A model generated the notes under the pieces. That model was given only the letters and a program-made list of their open reading frames with translations. It had not been told where the DNA came from and did no database searches. A DNA stretch of 64,000 bases from a virus. Shown here piece by piece: positions 2,378 through 18,405 of the stretch. Location of the stretch: positions 1 to 64,000 of the IMG/VR virus record IMGVR_UViG_3300030419_005383; one strand, written 5' to 3'. How positions within the stretch are numbered: position 1 is the first letter of the stretch; each line of letters begins with the position of its first letter. The position numbers were made by a program, and so were the translations under genes.

Positions 2378-3045
2378 CCACCTTGCCGGCCACAATTCGC
2401 GAGCTGCCAGCTTCTCAGAATCCTCTAATGGGCAGTTAGTATGGCAATACACCCCGCTCGTGATAGCGAAATGGCCGATTGCCATACAATGACCACGCTG
2501 CCAGGTGGTTCTCAAGACTTTTAATTCTGCCCCCAGAACCCCATAGTTTACACTGCCACTACTTAAGCAGGGGAGTAAGGAAAAACCCAGGTTCTAAGGG
2601 GATCGCACTGCCTTTTATGCCAAACAAAGGTAGCGCAGTGAATTCACCCACAATGTACCAGAAATCGCTTTCAATGCCTGCTTTCAGCCTGCCACCTTCG
2701 TGGGCAGCTCGTATGGCACTTTTACTATTTTTGAATCGGCAAACAGAAGAAGTACCTTGGTTCAAGGCCAGCTTTAAGGCAGTTGGACAGGGTACGGCAA
2801 TAAGTATGGCACCGAATTTCGGCTCCATTCTGGCCGAACCCAAAAGCGGACAATTTCTGTCCGAAAAAAAAACAACAACACCCCTTGCCATACGTTTGTT
2901 GGGGAGTAGTTTCAAGGTGTTGGCGCCGACGCCGTGTCGGTCCTTGGTTTGAAGCTATTTCCCCGCCATTCGGTTGGCCTCGGATGGTTGGTCCCCTGGG
3001 ATGGGGTGAGGGCCGACACACTTCCTTTTCGATTTGAGAGAACCG
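2378..3045. repeat. Gene-free region with six TGCCATAC octamers and hairpins
   Basis: No frame here has a ribosome site and convincing composition. The octamer TGCCATAC or its complement GTATGGCA occurs exactly at 2439, 2480, 2711, 2804 and 2886, with a one-base variant at 2792; a sixth exact copy lies in the next gene at 3191. Additional elements are CTGCC/GGCAG hairpins (e.g. 2688-2706) and a CGGACA/TGTCCG inverted repeat (2847-2864) followed by nine A. The copy at 2886 overlaps the -35 element of a promoter. Candidate roles are a replication origin with iterons, or a protein-binding array controlling the early promoters. Confidence 0.55.
2885..2912 (+). promoter_or_regulatory. Phage-type promoter P1
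   Basis: TTGCCA, 16 bases, TAGTTT. The spacer has TACGTTTGTTGG, close to the family pattern, but GGG instead of GTG near the -10. It stands before the genes at 3046 and 3324. Confidence 0.55.
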
Positions 3046-3315
3046 ATGACTTACGAACAGCGATACAATCTGCGGTCCGTGCCCGGCGTTGCCGACCAAA
3101 CAGGGCTCACTTTGTACGAGGCGTGCAAGGCGCTGAACGCCGCTGGCCGTGATGGTCGCGTTCAAGGCGCAACCCGGATCACTCGCGGATTGCCATACAG
3201 TCGCGAGCGATTCGTCGCCTTCTTTTGTGGGTGGCGCAAAGATGTCCGCCCTGCTTTCGGGGCGCTCGACAGTGAGCGGAACGTGCTCTATTGCTGGCGA
3301 ACTTCGCAATACTAG
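3046..3315 (+). CDS. Hypothetical protein, 89 residues
   Basis: Starts at the ATG after GAGAGAACCG, the ribosome site typical of this arm. It begins MTYEQRYNLR and contains a helical stretch around residues 20-35 and an aromatic, cysteine-containing C-terminal part. The sequence could hold a small winged-helix or helix-turn-helix fold, but no motif is firm. One TGCCATAC octamer lies inside the coding region at 3191. First gene of the operon driven by P1, eight bases ahead of the next gene. Confidence 0.65.
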   Translation: MTYEQRYNLRSVPGVADQTGLTLYEACKALNAAGRDGRVQGATRITRGLPYSRERFVAFFCGWRKDVRPAFGALDSERNVLYCWRTSQY

Positions 3316-3323
3316 GAGAACCG

Positions 3324-3929
3324 ATGTACCTGAAACTTTCCGAAATGAAACCCGCCGTGGCTGACGCTTTGCGTCGGGCTGGACACACCCGACCCGACAT
3401 CGAAGTTGTGGTCACCGAGACCATCGATTCGTGCGGTGGCTCGAAAGGCGCCCGTGTTTCGCTGACGGCAATCCGTCTCGCTGACGGGTTCTCGAAAACA
3501 CAAACCGGGAGCTGGGGCGGTCCGAACGCCTATGAGACCCGCGCTGCCGACCACGTCCGTGACATGGCCTTGCCTGCCGGCTACGCTGTGTACCGTGGAT
3601 ACGAGGGCGGTAACCTGTCGGGATACGGTCGCTTGCTCATGAGCCCTGCCGATGTCCAGACCATGGCCCTGCCAGGTGACACGGGATTGACCGATGACGA
3701 CAAGCTGGCGCTGTTCGCCATGCGAGGTCTGAAGCCGGCCTATCGAGGTGAGTGGGTGCGGCGTGCCACGGGTGGCCGGGTGACCTACGGGTCCGATGAC
3801 CCGACCTATGCTGCGCTCGCGAGCGCTGGCCTGGTCAAGGTCTCGAAGAACGGGGCCATGCGGATCACCACTGAGGGCAAAAACGCGGTGGCTGACTTCA
3901 ATCCGCGCGCACTTGGAGTCTACGCTTGA
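3324..3929 (+). CDS. Hypothetical protein, 201 residues
   Basis: Start chosen at the ATG after AGGAGAACCG. The N-terminal half resembles a small alpha/beta domain with repeated VTETID/VSLTAIRL strands; the C-terminal part (about residues 125-195) looks like a winged helix: alternating helix-forming segments, then a strand pair ending in ITTEGKNAV, a pattern frequent in DNA-binding or replication-associated phage proteins. No family could be named. Its stop codon overlaps the next promoter (P2). Confidence 0.7.
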   Translation: MYLKLSEMKPAVADALRRAGHTRPDIEVVVTETIDSCGGSKGARVSLTAIRLADGFSKTQTGSWGGPNAYETRAADHVRDMALPAGYAVYRGYEGGNLSGYGRLLMSPADVQTMALPGDTGLTDDDKLALFAMRGLKPAYRGEWVRRATGGRVTYGSDDPTYAALASAGLVKVSKNGAMRITTEGKNAVADFNPRALGVYA

Positions 3930-3953
3930 CGCACCATTGTGTGTGCTTAAGAT
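3926..3953 (+). promoter_or_regulatory. Phage-type promoter P2
   Basis: TTGACG, 16 bases, TAAGAT. The 28-base core is identical to that of P3 except for one base, indicating recent duplication or strong selection. Confidence 0.75.
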
Positions 3954-3980
3954 ATTAGTGACGCACCGACAGGGGAAATT

Positions 3981-4469
3981 ATGAAGATCATCAGAAAAAG
4001 ACAATACATCGACGCCGTTCGTTACGAATTTTACCTCTACTCGCGCGAGACTTTCGATGCCGATGCCAGAGAGGAGCATGGTAAAAACAACCTGCGCGAC
4101 CGCCCAGCGTGGGTCAACACCACGAGCATGAGCCTGGGTACGGGGCGCGTCGGTGACAACCGATACGCATGGAAGGCTGGCCCCTTCCTATGTGACGAAA
4201 ACGGGAACCCAGACATCAGGCCCCGTAAAGAGGACGCCTACCTTAAGGCTGTGCAGGCTGACACTCAACAGGGACCAACGCAAGGCCCATTCTACAGCGG
4301 ATACAGGGTCTATGCCATTGCTGAGTGCGAGTGTGGACGGCGCCTGACCTTGGACCGCTTCACTAACGCCTGCCGCTGCGGTCTGATGTACAACCAATCA
4401 GGCCAATGCTTGGCCGCAGTCAGCCAGTGGGGGGAAGAAACCGGGGAGCACTGGACAGAATGTTATTGA
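3981..4469 (+). CDS. Protein with C-terminal CxC...CxC zinc-ribbon-like motif
   Basis: 162 residues; ATG after GGGGAAATT. The C-terminal third has C116-x-C118 and C131-x-C133 (ECECGRR and ACRCGLM), suggesting a metal-bound hairpin. The N-terminal half is rich in aromatic and charged residues without a recognised domain. Single-gene operon between promoters P2 and P3, whose sequences are almost identical. Could be a small regulator or adaptor; function unknown. Confidence 0.68.
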   Translation: MKIIRKRQYIDAVRYEFYLYSRETFDADAREEHGKNNLRDRPAWVNTTSMSLGTGRVGDNRYAWKAGPFLCDENGNPDIRPRKEDAYLKAVQADTQQGPTQGPFYSGYRVYAIAECECGRRLTLDRFTNACRCGLMYNQSGQCLAAVSQWGEETGEHWTECY

Positions 4470-4493
4470 CACACCATTGTGTGTGCTTAAGAT
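4466..4493 (+). promoter_or_regulatory. Phage-type promoter P3
   Basis: TTGACA, 16 bases, TAAGAT; twin of P2. It overlaps the last codons of the upstream gene and would start transcription around 4500, just ahead of an AAGGAACC ribosome site. Confidence 0.78.
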
Positions 4494-4519
4494 ATGGGTG
4501 AACCCACAAGGAACCAACC

Positions 4520-4720
4520 ATGACCACTTACCGAATCGTTCGAATGTATCAGAACGCAGGCATCCGCCAGCGAACCGTGAAGAGGGGCTTGACCCTTGAG
4601 CAGGCGCAAGCCTGGTGCCGCAATCCCGAAACCTCGTGGAGAACTGCCACAACCCCTGAGGCCACCGAACGCACCCGCCGCTGTGGCATGTGGTTCGACG
4701 GCTACAGCAAGGAAGGCTGA
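4520..4720 (+). CDS. Small basic protein, 66 residues
   Basis: ATG after AAGGAACCAACC. Starts [14 protein letters not shown], then a helical middle [11 protein letters not shown] (residues 25-35) in which 'L-T-L-E-E-A-q-a-w-C' resembles short phage proteins of unknown role, with a glycine/serine/tyrosine end. First gene of the P3 operon, five bases ahead of the next. Confidence 0.65.
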
Positions 4721-4724
4721 ACCA

Positions 4725-4907
4725 ATGACCCGTAAACAATTCGAGGCCAAGTACCGCAACGCATGGGCCAAGCTAGTCAAGTCTGGCCAATACACGCCGG
4801 AAGGTCAGCAGGCCCTCAAAACCCTTTCGGCCTTGTATGACCTGAACCCAGAATGGGCCGACGACGCAGAGGACCAAAGGATCGATGACGCCAGGATGAA
4901 CGGCTGA
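4725..4907 (+). CDS. Small protein, 60 residues, unknown
   Basis: Start at the ATG behind AAGGAAGG; the open frame to 4596 is a shadow of the gene before. Helical, acidic at the C-terminus (DDAEDQRIDDAR), basic at the N-terminus. Second gene of the P3 operon. Confidence 0.6.
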   Translation: MTRKQFEAKYRNAWAKLVKSGQYTPEGQQALKTLSALYDLNPEWADDAEDQRIDDARMNG

Positions 4908-4936
4908 AACCATCTCCACCCACAAGGAACAAACCA

Positions 4937-5245
4937 ATGAACGAACCTATCTCCCTGCACGGCTGGACCGTGGAAACCGAAACCATAGTCGATGAGGTTG
5001 GACTACAATTTTACCACGCATGGGTCGAGATCTCCCTGAAAGAAGGCGGACCCCTGCGCCCGTTCGGCGCTAGTAGCATCGACAGCCCAGAAGAGACCTT
5101 GAGGCGGTTGTCCTCTCGGCTTGGTGCGGTTGTCAGAGTGATGATCTACCTCAACGGTCCTTGGGACAAAGAGTACAAGAAAGTCCATGAGTTGAGCATG
5201 GAAATTGACAAGCGCGCGAACTACCCACTTTCGACCTCTGCCTGA
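4937..5245 (+). CDS. Hypothetical protein, 102 residues
   Basis: ATG after AAGGAACAAACCA. Predicted mixed alpha/beta: strands in the first 35 residues (WTVETETIVD), then a helix SPEETLRRLSSRLGAVVRVMIY. Charged and soluble; no family recognised. Third gene of the P3 operon, 29 bases after its neighbour. Confidence 0.62.
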   Translation: MNEPISLHGWTVETETIVDEVGLQFYHAWVEISLKEGGPLRPFGASSIDSPEETLRRLSSRLGAVVRVMIYLNGPWDKEYKKVHELSMEIDKRANYPLSTSA

Positions 5246-5263
5246 ACCACGAGGAACCGAACC

Positions 5264-5512
5264 ATGACCAACCATTTTTACATGAACCCTGATCACAAAC
5301 ACTGGGATGCAGCCTGGGAAAAGTTGGCTGCTGATCCTGTCAACAAAGGAATGTACGACAAGTACACCGCAACCTGTCCCCGCAGTGGGGAGAGCTGGCA
5401 GTACATGGGCTCACATTACGATGCGGACGGAAGTGTTCATGAGTTCCGGCATCGACATCACCCCGCCGTGTACCGTCGCGTGACCACGCGCGTATTTCTC
5501 CCTGGGGCATGA
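5264..5512 (+). CDS. Histidine/tyrosine-rich small protein, 82 residues
   Basis: ATG after GAGGAACCGAACC. Rich in His, Tyr and Trp; the C-terminal half has a HxHxxHxHH-like cluster (FRHRHHPAVYRR) that could bind metal. No family recognised. Its stop overlaps the next start by ATGA. Confidence 0.6.
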   Translation: MTNHFYMNPDHKHWDAAWEKLAADPVNKGMYDKYTATCPRSGESWQYMGSHYDADGSVHEFRHRHHPAVYRRVTTRVFLPGA

Positions 5513-5811
5513 CCATGGGCAAACCTGACAACCGCAGCAAGATCTACAACCACGGCAAAGACTACGAGGCCAAGCGCCACCGTGGAGCATCGAACCGCGC
5601 GCGCCGCGCCGATGCCACCGACCGTCTGTGGGAACGCCGCATGCGCCGTGATAGCAAAGCAGAGATCGATGACCAGTTGGATGACGACTGGATGATCGAC
5701 GAGCTGGAGCAGGCTGCCGAATTCGGTGACGACTCAACCGAGGTGGAGGTCGTGCCCTACGTTCCGCACATCTCGCAGGCTGAATTGCGAAAGAAGCTGA
5801 AACTGAAATAA
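5509..5811 (+). CDS. Highly charged small protein, 100 residues
   Basis: The first ATG overlaps the preceding stop; a second ATG six bases on (5515) is better placed relative to GGGG, so the N-terminus is uncertain by two residues. The N-terminal half is strongly basic (RRADATDRLWERRMRRD), the second strongly acidic, ending in the basic tail ELRKKLKLK. Probably helical; may bind nucleic acid or a host protein. End of the P3 operon. Confidence 0.62.
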   Translation: MTMGKPDNRSKIYNHGKDYEAKRHRGASNRARRADATDRLWERRMRRDSKAEIDDQLDDDWMIDELEQAAEFGDDSTEVEVVPYVPHISQAELRKKLKLK

Positions 5812-5827
5812 AGTTGAACGGGCAGGG

Positions 5828-5855
5828 TTGCCGCACGTTTGTTGGTGACTACACT
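5828..5855 (+). promoter_or_regulatory. Phage-type promoter P4
   Basis: TTGCCG, 16 bases, TACACT; the spacer carries CAC, TTTGTTGGTG and AC, very similar to P9. Confidence 0.75.
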
Positions 5856-5883
5856 TTAATTGAACCGAGAGAGAACCAAACCA

Positions 5884-6054
5884 ATGCCTGACGACAGAAC
5901 ACCCGCAAGCCCTGAACAGATCGAAGAAGCCCGGCAGATGTTCGGGGACACCGACATCGAGATCGATGACGACGCCCAGCAATCAGCAGGGAGCGAAGGC
6001 GCCTGGATTCAGGCTTGGGTCTGGGTACCGAACCCACAAGGAAAGAACCAATGA
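5884..6054 (+). CDS. Acidic small protein, 56 residues
   Basis: ATG after GAGAGAACCAAACCA. Begins MPDDRTPASPEQIEEAR; acidic middle (DTDIEIDDDAQQ) and a tryptophan-rich end. No family recognised. First gene of the P4 operon, in ATGA overlap with the next gene. The overall acidity could fit a DNA mimic, but at 56 residues this is only a guess. Confidence 0.6.
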   Translation: MPDDRTPASPEQIEEARQMFGDTDIEIDDDAQQSAGSEGAWIQAWVWVPNPQGKNQ

Positions 6055-6587
6055 TCAAAATGAAGGACCACCCTGGCTACGGCATGACTGTGGAGTTCTG
6101 CCAAGAGCAGGCCTACGGCAAGCGCAAAGCAAAACGCGATTCATTCGAGCGATGCGACACTGACGGCTTCGTGTCCCAATGGGCCAGCGGCATCGGCGCC
6201 GCACAATGGGAGCTGAAGGCAGCAGTTGTTCGCGACGGCGGGTACGCTCCATTTCAGGTCCTTGTTGACAGTGACGGTGTGGTCGTGTCCTGCCGAAACT
6301 TCACCAACGATTACGGAACGGCGTGGCTTGTGCGGGACGAACACCAGGCCAGAATCGGTCGGACGTTCATTCCGGCAGACGGATCCCACCGCGAGGGGAG
6401 CCGCAGACGCAGCCGAATCCAGAAGAACCTGGGACTGCGTCAAGAGCTGCGCGATGCGCGGGCCTGGGTCTGTATCGCTGGCGGCGGCGGTCGGGGGCTC
6501 AGTGGCGCGGCGAGTTGCTACGCTGACACCTTCCCATTGCGAGACGACAACAAGCGACTGCAATTCCGTGAGGATGACGAAAGATGA
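6051..6587 (+). CDS. Hypothetical protein, 178 residues
   Basis: Start in ATGA overlap behind AAGGAAAG. The first 110 residues look like a globular alpha/beta domain (ELKAAVVRDGG, FQVLVDSDGVVVSCRN); after residue 115 the sequence becomes arginine-rich and less regular. No family recognised. Followed by a 200-base structured non-coding stretch. Confidence 0.62.
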   Translation: MIKMKDHPGYGMTVEFCQEQAYGKRKAKRDSFERCDTDGFVSQWASGIGAAQWELKAAVVRDGGYAPFQVLVDSDGVVVSCRNFTNDYGTAWLVRDEHQARIGRTFIPADGSHREGSRRRSRIQKNLGLRQELRDARAWVCIAGGGGRGLSGAASCYADTFPLRDDNKRLQFREDDER

Positions 6588-6788
6588 GGACAAGCCGCTC
6601 CGGTTGAACCGCCGGATAGTCAGGGGTAGCTGACCCCGACGATTGAAGTGGTGTGGTAGCCACAGTCAAGCGCCCGGACCCCGGATGGGGTCGGAGCAGG
6701 GCAGCCCGTTAGCTGGCAGCCGGAGGCTTTCGAGCCGAAGAAGGTGAAACAGCACTGCCCCCTTTTCACACAAGAACAGAGAGAACCG
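6588..6788 (+). ncRNA. Structured non-coding segment with four hairpins
   Basis: Between two genes lie several perfect hairpins: GGGGT/ACCCC (6623-6637), GTGG/CCAC (6648-6663), GACCCC-GGAT-GGGGTC (6677-6692) and GGCT-TTCG-AGCC (6725-6736), the last with a UUCG tetraloop. None is followed by a T-tract. No tRNA pattern could be fitted. It may be a small RNA, an attenuator, or a leader controlling the following cysteine-rich gene. The RNA call rests on folding potential alone. Confidence 0.35.
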
Positions 6789-7241
6789 ATGAAAAACAGA
6801 GTGACATGTGACTGCGAAGAGTGTCGGAAGATGTGCCACGGAAACCCCGGTTGGTTCAGGCCAGGCGAGGCCAGGCGGGCAGCGGCTTCCTTGGGCATGA
6901 CCTTTGGTGCGTTCTTCAAGAAGTACCTGATCGTTGAATTTTGGGAAGAAGGATTCAGTGGGCCAACGCATGTGCTCGCGCCGCGCCGGGTCACCCAGCC
7001 AGACGGGCAGACCCACGCAAGGTGGAGCGACAACTTCAGTAAAGGGCAGTGCCGTTTGCTCGGCCCCAACGGGTGCAAGTTGAGCAGCGAGAACAGGCCC
7101 TACGAATGCGCGTGTACGCTCAGCTCTGCCTGCCTGAACAACAAAGGCGACGAGCGTGGGACGAACCACCGCGAAGAGATCAAAGAGCTGTGGGAACCCC
7201 TGCAAGAAAGCGATGAGCTGCGAGAAGTGGAGAACCTGTAG
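6789..7241 (+). CDS. Cysteine-rich protein of the YkgJ-like metal-cluster type
   Basis: 150 residues from the ATG after GAGAGAACCG. The N-terminus has C7, C9, C12 and C16; a second cluster follows, C88 and C96 in GQCRLLGPNGC, then RPYECAC and C115. The pattern 'C..L...GC.....RP..C' is typical of the YkgJ/zinc- or iron-chelating family, proteins of unclear role that bind a metal or Fe-S cluster. The gene is preceded by the structured segment at 6.6 kb and followed by promoter P5. Family assignment is by motif reading. Confidence 0.62.
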   Translation: MKNRVTCDCEECRKMCHGNPGWFRPGEARRAAASLGMTFGAFFKKYLIVEFWEEGFSGPTHVLAPRRVTQPDGQTHARWSDNFSKGQCRLLGPNGCKLSSENRPYECACTLSSACLNNKGDERGTNHREEIKELWEPLQESDELREVENL

Positions 7242-7248
7242 AAAGTTG

Positions 7249-7276
7249 TTGACAAACCTTTGTGCGTGTCTACCTT
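7249..7276 (+). promoter_or_regulatory. Phage-type promoter P5
   Basis: TTGACA, 16 bases, TACCTT; the spacer has AACCTTTGTGCGTG. Confidence 0.75.
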
Positions 7277-7305
7277 TCAGGTGTAGCCAAAACCACGGAG
7301 GCCTC

Positions 7306-7689
7306 ATGGCCCAAACCATCCTGACCCGCGTCCGACGCGCCATCTACAACGAGTTCGCTTGCTTCATTCCGGGCGACACTAAGAAAGAAAAGATGGCGGT
7401 TGTTCGTGCCGCAACCCGTGTCGTTGCCCAGCCTCGCCGGGGCCCACGAAATCTTGACGTTTGTGTGTTCACCGGGGCCGATTCAGGCATTCCCAGCAAC
7501 ATTGATGGGTGGCATCGAGTAAGCGACGAGCTGGGCGCATACCCCACGATGGGCCCCCGTCCATATTTTGACCAGCCATGGAGCAACTATCCAGGCAACT
7601 GGGAGGATGCAGCAGCCATCGCAGTCTACCAGGGGCCGCGCAGTGAAGCGCGCTGGATTCTCAGTCTTTCGGCAGGAAGGAGGGAGTGA
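7306..7689 (+). CDS. Hypothetical protein, 127 residues
   Basis: ATG after CGGAGGCCTC. A basic helical N-terminus (RVRRAIYNEFA) is followed by proline/tryptophan-rich loops and a final helix. No family recognised. First gene of the P5 operon; its stop shares a base with the next start. Confidence 0.63.
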   Translation: MAQTILTRVRRAIYNEFACFIPGDTKKEKMAVVRAATRVVAQPRRGPRNLDVCVFTGADSGIPSNIDGWHRVSDELGAYPTMGPRPYFDQPWSNYPGNWEDAAAIAVYQGPRSEARWILSLSAGRRE

Positions 7690-8024
7690 TGAACATGAAA
7701 ACCACAATCAAACCAGGCGACAAGATCCGATCCTTTGACTTCGCTCGATCCATGAAAGATGGGACCGTTTACGGGACCGACACCGAAGGTGAGGAAGCCT
7801 GCTTTGTCGAGGGAATCGTAACCAAGGTTGATGTTGAGATGAATCAGATTCATTTCGAGGTCACCCGGCAGGTTGGCGAGGGACGAGAGATCAGTGACTT
7901 CTTCAACTGGTGCGAAAAGAACGGACACCCAAAGGTGATGTCCTGTCCCATCGCATCGTGGAGAACCGGAAACAGAGAAAAGATCGGGGCCCTGGTCAAG
8001 ATCAGCGGAGGCCGTGATGCCTGA
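7689..8024 (+). CDS. Hypothetical protein, 111 residues
   Basis: ATG directly behind AGGAGGGAGTG, the strongest ribosome site of this operon; an in-frame GTG at 7686 is less likely. The first 70 residues look like a small beta barrel (IKPGDKIRSFDF, VEGIVTKVDVE), a fold common in proteins that bind nucleic acids or peptides. No family recognised. It overlaps the next gene by 8 bases. Confidence 0.62.
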   Translation: MNMKTTIKPGDKIRSFDFARSMKDGTVYGTDTEGEEACFVEGIVTKVDVEMNQIHFEVTRQVGEGREISDFFNWCEKNGHPKVMSCPIASWRTGNREKIGALVKISGGRDA

Positions 8025-8220
8025 AAAGATCACCGAAGACCAATGCGTCCTGCTCCCAGAATCCGCTTGGAATGCCGTCGTCGTAACGTTGAACGCCTTG
8101 TACAGTGAGCGGTTCCAACACAAGAGCCTGAACGAAGTGGGCGTGATTCGAGACTTGGCCAATTTCCTCCAGGCGAACCTGGACAACAACCACACAGTCG
8201 AGGACTGGAATGAAGACTAA
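8017..8220 (+). CDS. Small helical protein, 67 residues
   Basis: ATG after GGAGGCCGTG. Starts MPEKITEDQC; two helices predicted (AWNAVVVTLNALYSERF and VIRDLANFLQANLD). No family recognised. It overlaps the following gene by 11 bases, so the two are likely translated together. Confidence 0.6.
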   Translation: MPEKITEDQCVLLPESAWNAVVVTLNALYSERFQHKSLNEVGVIRDLANFLQANLDNNHTVEDWNED

Positions 8221-8743
8221 GCCACAATTTGAGCACGACTGCCCCCGTTGCGCTTTCTTGGGCCGGCTTGAAGTGAGCCCTGGTGAGAACGACATGAACC
8301 CGACAGGGGAAGCCACCGTCAAGTATGACCTGTACTTTTGCGTTGCAGCAACACCCACTGTGATCGGTCGCTACGGTGACGAGGGGTATGAGTATTGCAG
8401 CGGCATGTCGTTTGCCGACCGGGGGAGCCAACCCTTGGCTGAAGCAAAGAGCCGAGCGATCAAGCAGGGTCTGTACGACCCGACACCACAGCCCTTGAGG
8501 TGGCCACGGGAGGAGGAAGAAATGGCAGTGGTCGCCATGGACAAACTCAAGTCAGCGCTTGATGCCATTTCAGAGTTGGGAGGCCCTGACCCCTCAAGCA
8601 GTGGGATGGAGCTGTTTCGACACAAGGTCAAAGAGGACATCAACGCCGACTGGTTCTTTGGAGGCGACGAAATGAGAGATGCGATCCTGGCCTACACCAA
8701 GGCCTGTGAAGTGCGATCCTATGGTGACCCAAGCCAATCATAA
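8210..8743 (+). CDS. Protein with N-terminal CPRC motif, 177 residues
   Basis: ATG inside the end of the preceding gene. C11-P-R-C14 near the start suggests half of a zinc ribbon; C44 and C63 could complete it. The C-terminal 80 residues are helical (MDKLKSALDAISEL). No family recognised. Last gene of the P5 operon; promoter P6 follows 10 bases after the stop. Confidence 0.65.
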   Translation: MKTKPQFEHDCPRCAFLGRLEVSPGENDMNPTGEATVKYDLYFCVAATPTVIGRYGDEGYEYCSGMSFADRGSQPLAEAKSRAIKQGLYDPTPQPLRWPREEEEMAVVAMDKLKSALDAISELGGPDPSSSGMELFRHKVKEDINADWFFGGDEMRDAILAYTKACEVRSYGDPSQS

Positions 8744-8752
8744 AACAACCCC

Positions 8753-8780
8753 TTGCCAAACTGTTGTCGGTGCTTAGCTT
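8753..8780 (+). promoter_or_regulatory. Phage-type promoter P6
   Basis: TTGCCA, 16 bases, TAGCTT; GTGCT precedes the -10 as in P2, P3, P7 and P8. Confidence 0.76.
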
Positions 8781-8804
8781 AAAGATGTAACCAGAGGGAA
8801 CACA

Positions 8805-9074
8805 ATGTACGCATGGATTATCGACAAGGACTATCTAAACGATGGAGCAGAAGGGACGGTCGGCCCGCGCAACCCGCACGCCGCATCCCTTGAAACGCTG
8901 AAGGCTGGCTACGGCGAACCGTTGCGCCTGTACGACGACGACGGGAACCTTCAATACGAAGTGCGAATCGCCGGAAACTACGACGGCTTTGAGCCCATGG
9001 ATGACTATGGCCGACCCAACGCCGCAACCACTGAGGTTCGCTACCTGGCGCAAGGCCAGTGGAAACCACTGTAA
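8805..9074 (+). CDS. Hypothetical protein, 89 residues
   Basis: ATG after AGAGGGAACACA. Acidic and beta-rich (LQYEVRIAGNYDG, TTEVRYLAQGQW). No family recognised. First gene of the P6 operon. Confidence 0.63.
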   Translation: MYAWIIDKDYLNDGAEGTVGPRNPHAASLETLKAGYGEPLRLYDDDGNLQYEVRIAGNYDGFEPMDDYGRPNAATTEVRYLAQGQWKPL

Positions 9075-9112
9075 ATCCAACCCTAACCACAGAAGAAGAA
9101 GAAGAGAACACC

Positions 9113-9328
9113 ATGACCAACAAACAACAAGCAGCGGTGATTCAAGCAAATTCAAATGGATACAAGTATGAGGGCAAACTACCGGCAGCAGCCTGCGGCC
9201 AGTGTGGAGGGTGGACAAGTTGTGGTGGAATGAGCCGGTACTACAGAACGCTGGTGCCAGTGATGGGCCGCTATGGCTGCATCTGCTACGCAGATGCCCG
9301 CTACCTGAACAGCATGGAGCAGCCATGA
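9113..9328 (+). CDS. Small cysteine-rich protein, 71 residues
   Basis: ATG after the purine run AGAAGAAGAAGAGAACACC; the frame upstream to 9059 is an artefact of the purine tract. Cysteines C28, C31 and C37 (CGQCGGWTSC), and C56, C58 (GCIC) suggest a metal-binding knuckle. Stop overlaps the next start by ATGA. Confidence 0.6.
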   Translation: MTNKQQAAVIQANSNGYKYEGKLPAAACGQCGGWTSCGGMSRYYRTLVPVMGRYGCICYADARYLNSMEQP

Positions 9329-9588
9329 CAAGCCCCCCCGACACTTGGACCCTGCCAAATGGCGCCGTTGTCATCGAATCAAAACGGTACAGCGACAGGC
9401 CGGAACACCGAAACCTTCGATACGTGCTGTGCGAATTCAGGGATGAGTACGTCACCTGGCGATGCGACACCCGAACCGGCGAGTGTCTGTACGGTCGCTA
9501 CTTTGGTGACAACTGGGAGAAGGCATGGGCCCACTACCGGGACCGCAACAAGGACGAAAACGTAATCCAGATGCCCCCTCCAAAATAA
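9325..9588 (+). CDS. Hypothetical protein, 87 residues
   Basis: Starts in ATGA overlap. Beta-rich first half (TWTLPNGAVVIES, RYVLCEFRDEYVTWRCD) followed by a helical, charged end. The 'strand-turn-strand, CEF...W' arrangement resembles small single-domain phage proteins of unknown role. Last gene of the P6 operon. Confidence 0.62.
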   Translation: MTSPPDTWTLPNGAVVIESKRYSDRPEHRNLRYVLCEFRDEYVTWRCDTRTGECLYGRYFGDNWEKAWAHYRDRNKDENVIQMPPPK

Positions 9589-9592
9589 ACAC

Positions 9593-9620
9593 TTGCCACA
9601 CCTCAGTTGGTGCTTAGCTT
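9593..9620 (+). promoter_or_regulatory. Phage-type promoter P7
   Basis: TTGCCA, 16 bases, TAGCTT; 10 of 16 spacer bases match the family consensus, including GGTGCT next to the -10. Confidence 0.76.
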
Positions 9621-9648
9621 ATCAATGTAACCGGAACAAAGGGAACCA

Positions 9649-9888
9649 ATGAGCATTAGATATGAAGGCGGAATCCACCGCGTGAAGCTGACACCCCGTG
9701 AGGCAGCGCAAGCCATGATGATCGACCAGGCAGAACGGGCCTGTGACTCGTGGCCGGGTTTTGTCATCGACACCGACGCATTGACCGAACGTGAAATCAC
9801 CCTGATCAATGAGCAGTTGGAGAAGCAGCGGGAACGTATCCTTCGCTTGTTTGAAAAGACCGCACGGAAGATTGGGTACAGCGTTTAG
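9649..9888 (+). CDS. Small helical protein, 79 residues
   Basis: ATG after AAAGGGAACCA. Predominantly helical (PREAAQAMMIDQAERA; LINEQLEKQRERILRLFEKTARK), probably a coiled-coil dimer. No family recognised. First gene of the P7 operon. Confidence 0.62.
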   Translation: MSIRYEGGIHRVKLTPREAAQAMMIDQAERACDSWPGFVIDTDALTEREITLINEQLEKQRERILRLFEKTARKIGYSV

Positions 9889-9924
9889 CTGAACCCGACC
9901 ACCGAATCACCACAGGAACAAACC

Positions 9925-10194
9925 ATGAAAGACCCACGAAAAGTAAACACGATCAAGCTGGTCGCAGACAATGACCGGAACGGCAACCCTCAACGGGGCT
10001 GGCTGGTGATGACGCGAGCCGGTGAGCTGCTCTGCTTCATTGATGATGGCTTCGTTGGATGGGCCGGAGTCAGGTCCAAATTCCCGAACGCGAAGGAACC
10101 GATGATCACCATCCCGGTGTCCGCCGCCGTCTACCGACGCGCACTCAAGGGGAACGACAGAACGGGACCGTTTCCGCAAAGCCTTTTGAAGTGA
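9925..10194 (+). CDS. Hypothetical protein, 89 residues
   Basis: ATG after CAGGAACAAACC. Begins with alternating strands (NTIKLVADNDRNG, GWLVMTRAGELLCFIDDG) that look like a small beta domain and ends with a short basic helix. No family recognised. Second gene of the P7 operon. Confidence 0.62.
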   Translation: MKDPRKVNTIKLVADNDRNGNPQRGWLVMTRAGELLCFIDDGFVGWAGVRSKFPNAKEPMITIPVSAAVYRRALKGNDRTGPFPQSLLK

Positions 10195-10212
10195 ACAGCA
10201 AGGAGCAAAACA

Positions 10213-10485
10213 ATGCGTTATCAACCAATCGTTTGCGCTGATGGATTCAAGATGTCAGTCCAGGCCGGTAGTGCACACTATTGCACGCCACAAAATGGCC
10301 GAGGCCCATACAGCGCAGTTGAGGTTGGATTTCCCAGTAAGGCCGAGCCACTGCTGATGAAGTGGGCTGAGGACCGAGATGATCCGACCAACACTGTGTA
10401 CGGCTGGGTACCGGCTGATGTCGTCAAGCGCGTGATAGCGAAGCATGGCGGCATGGTGGGGGGACAGTTGCCACGTTTTCAGTAG
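10213..10485 (+). CDS. Hypothetical protein, 90 residues
   Basis: ATG after AAGGAGCAAAACA. Contains 'GPYSAVEVGFPSKAEPLL', a pattern seen in small phage proteins where a strand leads into a proline-ended loop; two cysteines near the N-terminus. No family assigned. Third gene of the P7 operon. Confidence 0.62.
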   Translation: MRYQPIVCADGFKMSVQAGSAHYCTPQNGRGPYSAVEVGFPSKAEPLLMKWAEDRDDPTNTVYGWVPADVVKRVIAKHGGMVGGQLPRFQ

Positions 10486-10492
10486 GCCCCAC

Positions 10493-10520
10493 TTGCCGCA
10501 CCTTTGTTTGTGCTTACATT
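10493..10520 (+). promoter_or_regulatory. Phage-type promoter P8
   Basis: TTGCCG, 16 bases, TACATT; the spacer is the closest of all to the family consensus (CACCTTTGTTTGTGCT). Confidence 0.78.
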
Positions 10521-10557
10521 AAAGATGTAACCACGAACCAACCTGAGAGAACCAACC

Positions 10558-11298
10558 ATGCCAGAAAGCACATTCAACAACTACAAGCTGAACAAGTCGC
10601 TTGGCCTCAACTGGATGACCGCAGGAATGTCCATGTCGCCGGCCACCGAATCAATCGAGGTTGGTGGCCGAAACATGTGCCCCTGGTCTGGAGCGTGCGA
10701 AAAGTCCTGCCTGAAGTTTGCTGGCCGAAACCGCAACGCTCAATCCAGGGTCGCCCGTCAACGGCGTACCATGTTTCGCCTTGAGGAATTGGGCGGGTTC
10801 ATCCGGCTTGTGTCGGGAGAGATTGAGGGACTGAAGCGCAAGGCCGCGAAAGAAGGAATGAAGGTCGCCTATCGGCCAAACGTCCTGAGCGACGACAGCG
10901 TGTTCGCCCTGAAGCTGGCCGAAGCAAACCCCGACGTGCAGTTCTACGACTACACCAAAATTCCCAAACCATGGAAACGGGTACGCGAGAACTACCACCT
11001 GACATACAGCCTCGACAACCACAACCACGCCGAAGCACTCGAAGCCATCGAGAACGGTATCAACGTCGCGGTTGCCTTTGACCTTGGCAAGGATGAGCCA
11101 CTGCCAGAAACCTGGCAGATCCCCGGCACCGATGTCGTGTTGCCAGTGATCAACGGTGACGAACATGACCTGCGATTCCTTGACCCGGTTGGTGTCTTTG
11201 TTGCCCTCAAATTCAAAGGCAGCAAGGCTGAGCGAGCCAAAGCGGTTGCGGCTGGCTTTGTTTTCTCCCCAGTCACCATCATGGCTAAGGCGGCATGA
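10558..11298 (+). CDS. GP88-like phage protein of unknown function
   Basis: 246 residues, ATG after GAGAGAACCAACC. The N-terminal region has the arrangement 'CPWSGACEKSCLKFAGR' (C41, C47, C51) followed by an R-x-R-R-T-x-F helix and 'YRPNVLSD' (105-112). This combination is characteristic of the phage family first described as mycobacteriophage gene product 88, whose members are common in phage early regions and of unknown biochemical role. The cysteines may bind metal or a cluster. It stands first behind promoter P8. A hairpin-containing spacer of 134 bases follows. Confidence 0.65.
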   Translation: MPESTFNNYKLNKSLGLNWMTAGMSMSPATESIEVGGRNMCPWSGACEKSCLKFAGRNRNAQSRVARQRRTMFRLEELGGFIRLVSGEIEGLKRKAAKEGMKVAYRPNVLSDDSVFALKLAEANPDVQFYDYTKIPKPWKRVRENYHLTYSLDNHNHAEALEAIENGINVAVAFDLGKDEPLPETWQIPGTDVVLPVINGDEHDLRFLDPVGVFVALKFKGSKAERAKAVAAGFVFSPVTIMAKAA

Positions 11299-11343
11299 CC
11301 ACACCACAGGAGGTGAGAACCAATCCCAATCAACCCGAACCCT

Positions 11344-11365
11344 CGCCGGCCCTGGTAATCCGGCG
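11344..11365 (+). other. Perfect 6-bp hairpin in the spacer after the GP88-like gene
   Basis: CGCCGG and CCGGCG flank a 10-base loop. No T-tract follows, so termination is not implied; a message-stability or pausing role is possible. The frame through this spacer (11295-11432) is open but has no ribosome site adapted to it. Confidence 0.3.
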
Positions 11366-11432
11366 GGTGCGTTGGGCTCTCCAAAGGGTGGAGATTCCAG
11401 CTCACCAACCAACCACAACAACCGAGAGAACC

Positions 11433-11519
11433 ATGACTACATATCGTAGATATTCACAGCGCTCCTTGTTCCGCGACAACCGACGCAAGGCCAGCCCCGA
11501 ACCACAGGAAGAAGAATGA
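11433..11519 (+). CDS. Very small basic protein, 28 residues
   Basis: The ATG follows GAGAGAACC, the standard ribosome site of this arm, giving a 28-residue product rich in Arg and Ser with an acidic end. The same frame is open to an ATG at 11295 (74 residues), but only the downstream ATG has the characteristic site. It overlaps the next start by ATGA. May be a leader peptide serving translational coupling. Confidence 0.4.
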   Translation: MTTYRRYSQRSLFRDNRRKASPEPQEEE

Positions 11520-11884
11520 CCAATCGAGAACAACAAGCCCTTAAACGAATCGAGCGTTTTTACCGGTTGATCGTAGACCATGACGATATCTATTTGGACA
11601 TTGTTGCGCCCACCTTCAACTGGTTCCGGGCGGAAAGCGACGACCCAATGAAGGTGTATCAAGACGCCGTTGATGCGTTTCAGCCGGCCATCGTGCGAGC
11701 AGCCTACATGCTTCGGAAAACCGGTGACTGGCGAGGCTCGGTGCTCAACCAAGATGAGCGGTTGGCTTTGCGTGCTGACCGTCAAGCCGTCGCAGAGATG
11801 ATGGTGGAACACTACGTTGATCGCTATTGTGACAGCGCGCGCGTCATCCTTGAGCTTGCGATTGCAGAAAAGTCGGGTGAATGA
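11516..11884 (+). CDS. Helical hypothetical protein, 122 residues
   Basis: ATG after CAGGAAGAAG, in ATGA overlap with the preceding small frame. Almost entirely helical and rich in Arg/Asp/Glu/Ala (ALKRIERFYRLIVDHDD; RADRQAVAEMMVEHYVDRY). No family recognised. Sits in the P8 transcription unit, in ATGA overlap with the next gene. Confidence 0.65.
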   Translation: MTNREQQALKRIERFYRLIVDHDDIYLDIVAPTFNWFRAESDDPMKVYQDAVDAFQPAIVRAAYMLRKTGDWRGSVLNQDERLALRADRQAVAEMMVEHYVDRYCDSARVILELAIAEKSGE

Positions 11885-12285
11885 TGGCCCCAGAAATTGA
11901 CCTGTCTGAATCTCACTGGCGTGTGGCGATGCGAATGCACAACCACTCCACGTTGTTTTCTCAGACTCCGTCTCACATCACAAGACCGAAAACTCCAGAT
12001 GAGGAGGTGGAAAGCTGGCTCTTCTACGTGGAGCATGAGGTCCGGGCCATTCAAATTCGTGAGCGAATTTTGCGTGAGTGCAAAGACCTGTCTCCTAAAG
12101 AAAGGGATTCGCATGAGCATCTGCGTAGCCGCTCACAGTGGCGAGTCGGACAGTTCAAAAAGGAGCTGAAAGAAGCAGAGCGCAAGGCGCTGCCAGGGAA
12201 AATCGAACGACTGCGTCAGCGGTACGCTGTCAGGAATTTCGTCGCCAAGCGTCAAAAACCTGAAACCACAGGAGAGAACCAATGA
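11881..12285 (+). CDS. Basic helical protein, 134 residues
   Basis: Two adjacent ATGs (11881, 11884) make the first residue ambiguous. Charged helices dominate the second half (QFKKELKEAERKALPGKIER). No family recognised. Ends in ATGA overlap with the next gene. Confidence 0.63.
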   Translation: MMAPEIDLSESHWRVAMRMHNHSTLFSQTPSHITRPKTPDEEVESWLFYVEHEVRAIQIRERILRECKDLSPKERDSHEHLRSRSQWRVGQFKKELKEAERKALPGKIERLRQRYAVRNFVAKRQKPETTGENQ

Positions 12286-12704
12286 CTGACAATTTGCAAT
12301 TTCAAATGAGGGTAGCCGAAGGATGGCTGCACTTTACGGAACAAGCACGGTTTGAAAAAATCACAGTGGAACAGCTTGTCCGAAGACATTTCACGCAATG
12401 TCTCACCGAGCCAAATGTTTGCCACGACTGCAACAAACCGTTGAACGCTGAATCTCACGTCTTCGATACGGGAGATGGCGACAAGGATCCGTCCTGCGTC
12501 AGGTGCGGCGTCAAGACGATGGTTTCGGTGAGACTGGACGAATCAACGTGCGTTCAGGAACTGAAGGCTTTGACGGACCCCATCACCGCAAGTGTTCTGT
12601 TTTTCAGTGGCATCGACACAGACCCGAATCATCCGTTGTTTGATGTTCGTGATTGTCTGGAAGAAATGTTGCTTGGCAGCATCCCTGACCTGGCGGAGGA
12701 ATAG
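12282..12704 (+). CDS. Protein with CxxC...CxxC zinc ribbon, 140 residues
   Basis: ATG after GGAGAGAACCA. C47-H-D-C50 and C72-V-R-C75 form a textbook zinc ribbon spaced by 21 residues. The C-terminal 60 residues are helical and acidic. May be a small adaptor binding RNA polymerase, nucleic acid or another protein. Part of the P8 unit. Confidence 0.68.
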   Translation: MTDNLQFQMRVAEGWLHFTEQARFEKITVEQLVRRHFTQCLTEPNVCHDCNKPLNAESHVFDTGDGDKDPSCVRCGVKTMVSVRLDESTCVQELKALTDPITASVLFFSGIDTDPNHPLFDVRDCLEEMLLGSIPDLAEE

Positions 12705-12708
12705 CGCT

Positions 12709-12948
12709 ATGCCTTTTGTTTGCGTCAACGAACGCTACGGCGACGGTGAGTACGAGACTGCCGAAGCTTTCATGGAAATGTGCCAGGAGGTCTTTGGTGA
12801 GGCGCCAACCTTGATTGAGCGGGTGCTGGGTGAACTGTCTGAATTCATTGCGCCATCTTGGTGTCAAAATGAAAAAGAGCGAATGGAGTGCCAGCGGGCC
12901 GACTACGGGTACTGGGAAGTTGTGCTTCGGAAAAATGAAAATGAATAA
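12709..12948 (+). CDS. Acidic small protein, 79 residues
   Basis: ATG after CGGAGGAATAGCGCT. Strongly acidic (ETAEAFMEMCQEVFGE; LGELSEF) with three cysteines and a tryptophan/tyrosine-rich end. No family recognised. Last gene before promoter P9. Confidence 0.6.
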   Translation: MPFVCVNERYGDGEYETAEAFMEMCQEVFGEAPTLIERVLGELSEFIAPSWCQNEKERMECQRADYGYWEVVLRKNENE

Positions 12949-12963
12949 TTTTCACCCCACGTG

Positions 12964-12991
12964 TTGCCGTACCTTTATTGGTGACTACACT
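12964..12991 (+). promoter_or_regulatory. Phage-type promoter P9
   Basis: TTGCCG, 16 bases, TACACT; close twin of P4 (same -35 and -10). Confidence 0.76.
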
Positions 12992-13011
12992 TTCTATGCA
13001 AGGGAGAACCA

Positions 13012-13506
13012 ATGACCCAAACCACTTTTGAATCTTTCAAGAAAGAAGCAGGTGACCTGCTCAAACAACCATCACCGCTGGCTGATCAGTTGAACAGAAT
13101 GGTCAAGATCGAGCGGACGGAGCGAGATGCGGTCCGCGGCATGCCTGCCGAGATGGACGGTCAGTTTGTTTCCGGCGTAGACCTGAAAGCGTTTCGTGAT
13201 GATGACAAGCGTTTCCAGCGCGTGGCAGGCTGGAAAATCGATGAGGAATGGGATGATCTCGAATGGACGGAATGCTCCACATGTGGATGGTTTGCCGCGC
13301 GAGAATCAGGCGATGGAGACTTCAATTCAATCCTTGATGACGAGTTCGGTTCGGATTGGTTTCTGTGTGACCCTTGCTGCGCCGCAGATGACCGATGTCG
13401 AGATACGACATTTCCTCCCCGCGAGGAACCGACCAAGCTGGACAAGATCGTCTCTGACCGCCTCACCGATGTGCTTGAGAAATTCGGAATCTTCCGAAAC
13501 GACTAA
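13012..13506 (+). CDS. Zinc-ribbon-like protein, 164 residues
   Basis: ATG after AAGGGAGAACCA. C88-S-T-C91 and C119-D-P-C122 give a zinc-ribbon-like pair separated by an acidic loop. The N-terminal part is helical and charged; the C-terminal segment forms another helix. Alone behind P9 and followed at once by P10, so it is separately controlled. Function unknown. Confidence 0.67.
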   Translation: MTQTTFESFKKEAGDLLKQPSPLADQLNRMVKIERTERDAVRGMPAEMDGQFVSGVDLKAFRDDDKRFQRVAGWKIDEEWDDLEWTECSTCGWFAARESGDGDFNSILDDEFGSDWFLCDPCCAADDRCRDTTFPPREEPTKLDKIVSDRLTDVLEKFGIFRND

Positions 13507-13516
13507 AACCAAAGGG

Positions 13517-13544
13517 TTGACACACTATTAAATGTGCCTATCTT
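13517..13544 (+). promoter_or_regulatory. Phage-type promoter P10
   Basis: TTGACA, 16 bases, TATCTT; GTGCC precedes the -10 as in P11. Confidence 0.74.
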
Positions 13545-13569
13545 ATATGTGAACCACAGGAGAGAACCA

Positions 13570-14172
13570 ATGTCCATTTTAAATCAAGCCGAAATCGTCG
13601 CACTCCAAGCCCTTGGCAACACATCATGTGAGCAGTTGCCAAAGGCCAAGGCGGCCGAAGCGAAGAGCGAGCTGCCGGAAGCAGAGTCCAAGACAATCAA
13701 ACTGACTGCGGAGATTGAGGCCACCGTGTCGAAGGGAAAGCCTCCAGCCGAGCGGCCGAACACCAGTTCTCTCGGCTCAGATGCTGATCTGCGAATTCTC
13801 GCAGCAGCAGTTGAGGAGGTCAGAGAAGCGGCCAAACGAGACGACAACGGAAGGTTTCGAGACAGCCAGGAGGCATCACGCGTTTTAGACATGTTGATGG
13901 ATGTCATCGTTTCCAAGAAGTCTGAATGGTCGGAGCGGCAGATTGAATGCGGAAATGACCCGAAGAAGCGAAAGCAGTTGAAGAAAGACTTTCTGCTCGA
14001 AACCGGCAACCCCGAAGTCCTGATGCGATTCGCTCAGCTCAACAAGGAACTGAAGGCCAACATGCCGAAAGTTCAACCGGCTGCTCCCGTTCGGGTGACA
14101 TTTGAAAACGTGAAGATCATGAATTGCGAATTGCTCCGCGACCAAGTCAACGCAGAAAAGGGTGAGGCTTGA
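13570..14172 (+). CDS. Helical charged protein, 200 residues
   Basis: ATG after GGAGAGAACCA. Rich in Lys/Glu/Ala; an alanine-lysine-glutamate N-terminal half that may be disordered or coiled-coil, then regular helices (SRVLDMLMDVIVSKKSEWSER) and a final strand-rich part (VRVTFENVKIMNCELL). No family recognised. Start of the P10 operon. Confidence 0.64.
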   Translation: MSILNQAEIVALQALGNTSCEQLPKAKAAEAKSELPEAESKTIKLTAEIEATVSKGKPPAERPNTSSLGSDADLRILAAAVEEVREAAKRDDNGRFRDSQEASRVLDMLMDVIVSKKSEWSERQIECGNDPKKRKQLKKDFLLETGNPEVLMRFAQLNKELKANMPKVQPAAPVRVTFENVKIMNCELLRDQVNAEKGEA

Positions 14173-14360
14173 TGATGGAAACGAACGACAGACATCTGCG
14201 GCTTGTCCGAAACGAACGACAAATGAAGGCTTTGCTGGATGACCTGGACCCGACACTGACGGCTCAGGTCATCCAAGACCTGCGAGCGATGCAGCCCGGC
14301 CAGGTCACCAACATCAAGGCAGGCGAAGTCATGCTGCGGGTCACCAGGGGCGGAACATGA
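14172..14360 (+). CDS. Small hypothetical protein, 62 residues
   Basis: The ATG at 14172 overlaps the preceding stop and follows GGTGAGG; a second ATG is three bases on. Helical first half (NERQMKALLDDLDPTL) and a beta hairpin at the end (VTNIKAGEVMLRVTRGG). Such a 'helix then basic hairpin' end is seen in small DNA-binding proteins, but no family is named. Ends in ATGA overlap. Confidence 0.58.
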   Translation: MMETNDRHLRLVRNERQMKALLDDLDPTLTAQVIQDLRAMQPGQVTNIKAGEVMLRVTRGGT

Positions 14361-14953
14361 GACCATCAACAACTCAGATCAGGATCCTTCGGGTCGTTGC
14401 ACAAAAATTTCTCTGTCAGATACGCGACGCCGGCCGCGTCATGTATCAGGAGGGTTTGGCTGTGCGTGAATTTCCGAATCGACATCCAGTGGCTGAGACC
14501 GGAATGGAACAACTTAAATTCCAATTCGTCAAAGTCCACCGATTGATGATGATGGCTGGCGCCGAACGCACCTGGGTTTCAACTGGCCAGTTCGCTGTCC
14601 CGCTGACGGGCACCGACGGCCGCTGGTACGGTCCAGAGCCGTTGCCGCGTATCGCAAACGAGTGTGAAGCAGCGAGGCTGCTGCTGACCAAGGGCGAGCT
14701 GCCAGATGGCTACCCGTCCGCCAGGTTGCAGGGTCGGTTCGTTCGCAACCGCGCGCTCTGCCATGTCATCCGGCCAGAGGTCGGTGTACATGACCTGCAC
14801 CTGTACGCTGCCTGTCGTGCCCTTGGCCAACTGCGACTTCCCCTCCGGCACCTTCGGCTTCGCCAGATGAACCCCGAAGATCCGGTCGTCGTTCAGACTG
14901 ACGCCGACCCCAGCGCATTCGTTTTGATCAAACCGTTCAAAAGAAAAACTTGA
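14357..14953 (+). CDS. Basic hypothetical protein, 198 residues
   Basis: Starts in ATGA overlap with the preceding gene. Basic throughout (many Arg, few acidic residues) with a leucine/arginine-rich patch around residues 150-170 (RALGQLRLPLRHLRLR). No family recognised. Last gene of the P10 operon; its stop overlaps the -35 element of P11. Confidence 0.6.
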   Translation: MRPSTTQIRILRVVAQKFLCQIRDAGRVMYQEGLAVREFPNRHPVAETGMEQLKFQFVKVHRLMMMAGAERTWVSTGQFAVPLTGTDGRWYGPEPLPRIANECEAARLLLTKGELPDGYPSARLQGRFVRNRALCHVIRPEVGVHDLHLYAACRALGQLRLPLRHLRLRQMNPEDPVVVQTDADPSAFVLIKPFKRKT

Positions 14954-14977
14954 CTTTCATGAGTCGGTGCCTATCTT
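14950..14977 (+). promoter_or_regulatory. Phage-type promoter P11
   Basis: TTGACT, 16 bases, TATCTT. The left half of the spacer deviates from the family but CGGTGCC before the -10 matches. Confidence 0.68.
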
Positions 14978-15018
14978 ATTGGTGTGACCGTTTAACCCCA
15001 CAGAGAAAAGAGAGAACA

Positions 15019-15336
15019 ATGAGCACAAAACGATTCCAGTATGAGTGGCAGCTTTTCTGGGAAGAGCCAGATGGCGAAGTTGACCACAGCGATACCATCG
15101 AAGGGTTCCACCCAGATGACATCAACGATCTGCTCGCCAAGCGGTGTGAACTGTCCGTCCGCGTGTGGGACCACAGGAATCCCTACGGCGGCTGGGAAGA
15201 CGCACGATGTCATTGGAACGATGGCACCCTGACCATCGCCAGCCACCATGAGCCTGCGGCATTCCAATTGCACGGCAAGAAGGTGTTGCAGCGCCACCAC
15301 AAAGAACTGGCTGCATTCATGTGCAACCACCGATAA
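15019..15336 (+). CDS. Hypothetical protein, 105 residues
   Basis: ATG after AAAGAGAGAACA; the frame from 14950 passes through the promoter and is not used. Sequence rich in Trp and His, beta strands in the first half (FQYEWQLFWEEPDGEV), histidines concentrated at the C-terminus. No family recognised. First gene behind P11, upstream of a tandem duplicated pair. Confidence 0.62.
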   Translation: MSTKRFQYEWQLFWEEPDGEVDHSDTIEGFHPDDINDLLAKRCELSVRVWDHRNPYGGWEDARCHWNDGTLTIASHHEPAAFQLHGKKVLQRHHKELAAFMCNHR

Positions 15337-18160: not shown

Positions 18161-18405
18161 TGCCGACTTTTGATTTTCCATCCGAACCATACTTCGTCAT
18201 CTACGACGAAAACGGGAGACGTGTCTATTTCACATTCCGTGAGATTGGAGACCGTGTCCGCAAGGAGGCGCCTGAAACCCTGGGTGAGCACATCTTTGTG
18301 CAGATTGACGCCCTGGGTTTGAACAAAGAGTTCGAACGGGCAGGGACTCCGCACTCGCTTCCTTACACTTTTGCTGAAAAAAACACTGGAGAAAACAATG
18401 CCTGA
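18160..18405 (+). CDS. Hypothetical protein, 81 residues
   Basis: TAATG start behind GTGGAGGGC. Beta-rich beginning (YFVIYDENGRRVYFTF) then a helix with RDRVRKEAPE-like composition. No family recognised. Overlaps the next gene by 8 bases. Confidence 0.6.
   Translation: MPTFDFPSEPYFVIYDENGRRVYFTFREIGDRVRKEAPETLGEHIFVQIDALGLNKEFERAGTPHSLPYTFAEKNTGENNA

Follow-up and report, generated by a model that had tools for sequence, protein, structure and literature searches.

Twelve predicted early promoters with a conserved, partly dyadic spacer in an uncultured phage

The early region of the uncultured virus IMGVR_UViG_3300030419_005383 contains a set of promoter-like sites that have in common not only their −35 and −10 elements but also the DNA between them, which raises the question of what reads these sites and why their spacer is kept. 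The stretch analysed, here called the window, comprises bases 1–64,000 of the 74,295-base record, which is classed as linear; the remaining 10.3 kb were also scanned. A sequence-only reading had listed eleven such sites on the plus strand and one on the minus strand, and had proposed either a phage-specific activator, repressor or sigma factor acting on the spacer or a very recent multiplication of a promoter cassette. All twelve sites were found where it had placed them, each with a 16-base spacer.

The loose pattern TTGMCR-N16-TANNNT matches the window 11 times against 1.27 matches expected, a number that was reached in 0 of 100 shuffles. Ten of these matches are listed sites, and the eleventh (at 26112, minus strand) lies outside the family. 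A matrix was built from the 12 sites and the whole record was scanned with it, using the reversed sequence as a control. The sites score between 24.3 and 37.9 bits, with the next match in the record at 15.7 and the control at 10.5; leave-one-out scores range from 15.1 to 35.6 and all exceed the control. Because the scan separates the 12 sites from the next-best match, the record holds exactly 12 members of the family, and a chance origin is excluded. The hexamers alone are unconvincing, since a generic sigma70 scan of 2.3–15.4 kb barely exceeds shuffled sequence (7 sites versus 5.1, with 4 of the 7 being family members); it is the spacer and the start site that carry the case.

With position 1 as the first T of the −35 TTG, the −35 element has the consensus TTGMC, with T1, T2, G3 and C5 present in 11, 12, 12 and 12 of the 12 copies. 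It reads TTGCC (or GTGCC) in seven of them, and the proposed TTGMCR does not extend to the plus-strand site at 14950, which has TTGACT. T23, A24 and T28 of the −10 element TANNNT occur in every copy, always at a spacing of 16 bp. Within the spacer, A8 and C9 are found in 11 and 12 copies, T12, T13, G14 and T15 in 9, 9, 9 and 10, and G18, T19 and G20 in 12, 11 and 12. The earlier description of the spacer thus needs adjustment: only half of the copies (6 of 12) open with CACC or AACC, the strict part being A8 C9; TTGT stands in the middle of 7; and the GTG before the −10 element is present except at 2885, which has GGGG. Similarly, “near-identical” applies to the pair at 3926 and 4466, which differ by one base (27 of 28 shared), while other pairs share 14–25 of 28. 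Conservation also runs past the −10 element, which had been missed: T34 and G35 are each present in 11 copies and C39 in 10. With T28 taken as −7, these correspond to −1/+1 and +5, so that T34 G35 forms the usual pyrimidine–purine start. At positions 25 and 26, which lie between the −10 contacts, all four bases occur, position 16 is also randomised, and the flanks of the sites contain almost no information. The sites, their position, their architecture and the non-random nature of the spacer are thus direct observations. The invariant T23, A24, T28 and TTG-C coincide with the main sigma70 contacts, and the prediction that the 12 sites are bacterial sigma70-type promoters is well supported.

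Their placement agrees with this. In the eleven plus-strand sites, 296 of 308 bases (96%) are intergenic, compared with 14% of the region, so matrix hits are far from being as frequent in coding as in intergenic DNA, and the claim that these are phage promoters stands. Between 3.9 and 15 kb, each gap of 50–75 bases carries one site and gaps of 29–48 bases carry none. Gene starts in this region were chosen manually, guided by open frames and ribosome-binding sites. Ten of the eleven plus-strand sites immediately precede a gene that has a ribosome-binding site, and the predicted +1 stands 14–35 nt ahead of the start codon, with the first site, at 127 nt, as the sole exception. This outlier, P1 (TTGCCATACGTTTGTTGGGGAGTAGTTT, 2885–2912), has its predicted +1 at 2919 and its first gene at 3046. 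P2 (3926–3953; +1 at 3960, gene at 3981), its near-copy P3 (4466–4493; +1 at 4500, gene at 4520) and P11 (14950–14977; +1 at 14984, gene at 15019), which has the most divergent spacer (TTCATGAGTCGGTGCC), all overlap the TGA stop codon of the preceding gene. The others on this strand are P4 (5828–5855; +1 at 5862, gene at 5884), P5 (7249–7276; +1 at 7283, gene at 7306), P6 (8753–8780; +1 at 8787, gene at 8805), P7 (9593–9620; +1 at 9627, gene at 9649), P8 (10493–10520; +1 at 10527, gene at 10558), which is closest to consensus, P9 (12964–12991; +1 at 12998, gene at 13012) and P10 (13517–13544; +1 at 13551, gene at 13570). P12 lies on the minus strand (431–458), has GTGCCA as its −35 element, and fits the family less well in its 3′ extension; its predicted +1 (424) coincides with the first base of an ATG, possibly giving a leaderless transcript of a gene that runs off the end of the record. 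P1–P11 head operons in an early block of about 30 small plus-strand genes (3046–15336), and the motif thereby marks operon starts among genes of which nearly all lack a known family. The start codons of the block share leaders resembling GGAGAGAACCAATG. No excess of terminators was found beside the sites between 2.3 and 15.4 kb (19 versus 17.1 in shuffles).

The conserved spacer bases form an imperfect dyad, CACC-N6-GGTG, centred at 13.5, in which A8 pairs with T19, C9 with G18 and, in part, C7 with G20 and C10 with G17; P7 and P12 have it in perfect form. In a column-permutation test, this centre was the best of all (p = 0.016), which is supportive but not strong evidence for a symmetric spacer; the 12 sites are related, and the p-value carries no correction for the dyad having been suggested by the same data. 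An 11-bp helical periodicity of conservation was not significant (lag 11, p = 0.20), and no compensatory changes between the dyad arms were seen among the 12 copies. With one mismatch allowed, CACC-N6-GGTG occurs 48 times against 29 expected, and since these free copies are mostly scattered, they outline no clear regulon beyond the promoters. The dinucleotide TG at positions 19–20 corresponds to −16/−15, which places it one base upstream of where a classical extended −10 element would have it.

A comparison with a related phage, G007 (IMGVR_UViG_3300003690_000090; helicase 52% identical), bears on how the spacer should be read. The exact 28-base pattern in IUPAC code had 0 matches in IMG/VR with the window's own record left out, and the matrix scan of related phages, most of which lack the early region in their contigs, gave nothing convincing. 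A blind repeat search of G007, by contrast with the matrix, revealed a family of its own, comprising five early promoters and one weaker site. The five again have a spacing of 16, a −10 element TACRTT and mostly T34 G35, but a different conserved spacer, CGTTRTCA...GG (CCGTTATCAG-RRCGG), which is partly dyadic (CCGTT-N5-AACGG). At several G007 sites the −35 element is poor and the spacer is kept; at the weaker sixth site, the spacer element and the −10 stay in register and TTGACA lies one base further upstream. The same architecture with another spacer word is what would be expected if the protein that binds an operator had come to recognise a different sequence, although a different host polymerase could also explain it. 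Four further matches to the G007 motif in other contigs formed no promoter family, showed no BLAST homology to G007 genes and are probably due to chance.

These observations suggest early host-polymerase promoters, each carrying in its spacer an operator to which a dimeric DNA-binding protein of the phage would bind and so shut the early operons off, a reading that we hold to be about evenly balanced between right and wrong. From the data at hand we infer that host sigma70 is used, that the dyad acts as an operator, that it represses in preference to activating, and which protein binds it. Scans of the phage proteins turned up neither an RNA polymerase nor a sigma factor nor any known family of activators; the phage sigma factor proposed earlier is thus unsupported, and, with no recognisable phage RNA polymerase, the host sigma70 polymerase would be the natural reader. 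Host polymerase with its main sigma factor would read the 12 early promoters, starting at the conserved G35, and every promoter would drive one small early-gene operon. The CACC-N6-GGTG dyad would serve as the operator for the dimer, and, as it accumulates, the protein would occupy the DNA between −35 and −10 and silence all early operons together, much as CI and Cro act at lambda pL via OL1.

The best candidate for the operator-binding protein is, as a hypothesis, an 87-residue Xre/Cro-like helix-turn-helix protein encoded at 19479–19742 on the plus strand, with a putative link to the promoters. Orthologs occur in 9 of 10 relatives identified by helicase and in 3 of 3 capsid relatives that carry the helicase, and the putative recognition helix varies between phages. 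Matches to protein families score poorly (HTH_28, E = 3e-4, below the cutoff; phrog_4268, “transcriptional repressor”, E = 0.005). Its AF2 model is confident, with a pLDDT of 84, and the top Foldseek matches are for the most part Xre regulators and antitoxins. An alternative candidate, a conserved early protein encoded at 18398–18985 (plus strand), may contain a winged helix as judged by inspection and had no family hit.

Several observations weigh against this assignment and against the operator itself. The Foldseek E-values are weak (0.07 at best), and no copy of the operator was seen at the gene for the Xre-like protein. Two relatives, G018 and G019, carry the ortholog with no comparable promoter family in the stretches read, so the protein may have another job. 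The dyad is imperfect, with an asymmetric centre (often TTGT), a position 7 that varies between C, T and A, and only the modest permutation p-value given above. A putative phage-specific factor that binds the spacer, as proposed earlier, is plausible in view of the dyad symmetry, the displaced TG and the different conserved spacer of the relative. If the reading is extended to the phage group, the early genes would form one regulon in phages without lysogeny genes, with a lineage-specific operator word (CACC-N6-GGTG here, CCGTTATCAG-N2-CGG in G007) and with the specificity of the regulator and a dozen sites changing together; this we put forward tentatively, as possible yet on the unlikely side.

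The pattern could also arise with no phage regulator at all, if the spacer word simply made the strongest 16-bp-spacer promoter for the host polymerase, through contacts with sigma region 3 or the beta′ zipper or through DNA shape, and were kept by selection for strength. The sites do look like ordinary promoters of the sigma70 type whose initiator is conserved, and plain TTGACA-17-TANNNT promoters are in use among the relatives as well. Against it stand the dyad symmetry of the conserved spacer bases and the TG one base off the extended −10 position, and G007 keeps a different word at the same place, though it may infect another host. We consider this explanation unlikely, but it deserves to be taken seriously.

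An activating role was also weighed, in which a phage activator, or a protein redirecting the host polymerase, binds the spacer and turns the promoters on in an early-to-middle switch. The predominance of TTGCC or GTGCC as −35 element and the poor −35 elements of G007 would suit such a protein. So would a 56-residue acidic protein encoded at 5884–6054, the first gene after P4, which weakly matches sigma70 region 1.1 (E = 0.0021, below the cutoff) and could possibly be a mimic acting on host polymerase. The nearly invariant TTG and C5, on the other hand, fit direct recognition by sigma, neither a sigma factor nor a known activator family turned up among the scanned proteins, and activators seldom bind inside a 16-bp spacer; we regard activation as rather improbable.

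Recent multiplication of a promoter cassette, with likeness by descent only, fares worse. Local copying is real for the sites at 3926 and 4466, right halves such as GTGCTTAGCTT or GGTGACTACACT are common to some other pairs, and relatives lack the motif. As the sole cause, however, descent is disfavoured, because the neutral positions 25, 26 and 16 have been randomised while A8, C9, G18, T19 and G20 are kept in at least 11 of 12 copies; flanks are almost unshared, too, and most pairs agree at only 14–25 of 28 positions. The “very recent multiplication” of the sequence-only reading therefore survives for one pair and is otherwise improbable. Hairpin promoters of the N4 type, in which the dyad would form a single-strand hairpin for a virion-borne phage RNA polymerase, might be suggested by the promoter dyad, the abundance of small early genes and the single giant late gene, but we reject them as scarcely credible, as sigma70-type −35, −10 and initiator elements are all conserved and the giant 4060-residue protein, the would-be polymerase, matches nothing in Pfam, PHROGs or PDB and lacks a set of polymerase motifs. 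By eye, this late protein (35257–47439, minus strand) has ParB-like stretches and others that look like metalloproteases (HELVH, HENGH), and in this it resembles the large polyvalent proteins of virions.

The remaining genes (primase, two helicases, RecE/RecT, capsid, portal, SLT transglycosylase, terminase and the single-stranded DNA-binding protein) fit a lytic podovirus-like phage, whose nearest cultured capsids are 23–30% identical. No integrase, CI-like repressor or lysogeny genes were found among the scanned proteins, and a capsid-based search of genome contigs for a prophage relative, and hence a host, returned none. A late protein of 144 residues (34067–34501, minus strand) is 86% identical in G007, compared with 30–55% for most proteins, which points to recent exchange or strong constraint.

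Other repeats accompany the early genes. The non-coding gap before the first of them (2378–3045) is dense in TGCC repeats on both strands, with five copies of TGCCATAC, including the one in the promoter at 2885, and direct repeats TGCC-N8-TGCC; it is a candidate replication origin or regulatory region. G018 (contig L113) has a cluster of CCCTAACCT repeats on both strands at 9850–10100, just upstream of its early genes, which is perhaps the counterpart. Many early genes of the relatives have an identical start sequence, GGAGGTGAGTGATG, of which 20 kb of G019 (contig L116) contain 14 copies; it is absent from the window, where GGAGAGAACCAATG serves. In the closest relative (L010, 1150–1226), four tandem copies of the dyad TCCGAA-CGAGA-TTCGGA precede a gene and are likely an operator array.

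How lytic phages coordinate large early-gene blocks with many separate promoters is a largely open question. Here, the sites, their predicted starts and a short list of candidates are known precisely enough to be put to a binding or reporter assay directly, and, if a regulator was indeed re-targeted to a dozen sites between related phages, this would be a useful case of operator–regulator co-evolution.

Among known systems, the PeSL cassettes of T4-type phages are repeated early promoters between small, fast-changing early genes, but they carry a stem-loop terminator, whereas the window has no terminator excess and its copies lie tight against stop codons. In lambda pL, a sigma70 promoter, an Xre/Cro-type dimer binds OL1 in the DNA that separates −35 from −10. 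The operators of lambda are clustered at two early promoters whose spacing is 17 bp, in contrast to 12 dispersed single copies here. SPBRE of the Bacillus phage SPbeta, a 15-bp element in about ten promoter regions, was first seen in silico and later proven to be the operator of the master regulator MrpR (PMC10516654). It resembles the present family in being one repeated element across many promoter regions, but it serves a recombinase-like repressor in a temperate phage, while neither lysogeny genes nor an MrpR-like protein were found here. Indeed, master-repressor operators in general (SPBRE, stoperators, OL/OR) belong to temperate phages, and the scanned proteins gave no sign of that lifestyle.

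The closest described case is that of the extended start-associated sequences (ESAS) of cluster K mycobacteriophages, first described in PMC3203893. These are dispersed intergenic copies of 46–47 bp (7 in Adephagia) that combine SigA-like promoter hexamers with an imperfect inverted repeat (PMC11373665); a regulator is suspected to bind the repeat, its identity is unknown, and the consensus is specific to the phage group (PMC3203893, PMC11373665). Both systems have several intergenic near-consensus copies with a SigA-like promoter, 12 and almost wholly intergenic here, and in both the genes also share a start-associated sequence, the present phage having its own, GGAGAGAACCAATG. ESAS differ in their spacing of 17–18 and repeat arms of 15–17 bp, as against a spacing of 16 and short arms inside the spacer with an asymmetric centre, and cluster K phages encode both an integrase and a repressor, neither of which was found here. 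A relation in sequence is not expected. A few phages are already known to have comparable promoter families, which makes the family described here a solid new case, not a new principle. What it adds is a variant rather than a new kind: 12 copies in a phage with no lysogeny genes found, a 16-bp spacer with a short dyad inside it, and a specificity that differs between relatives.

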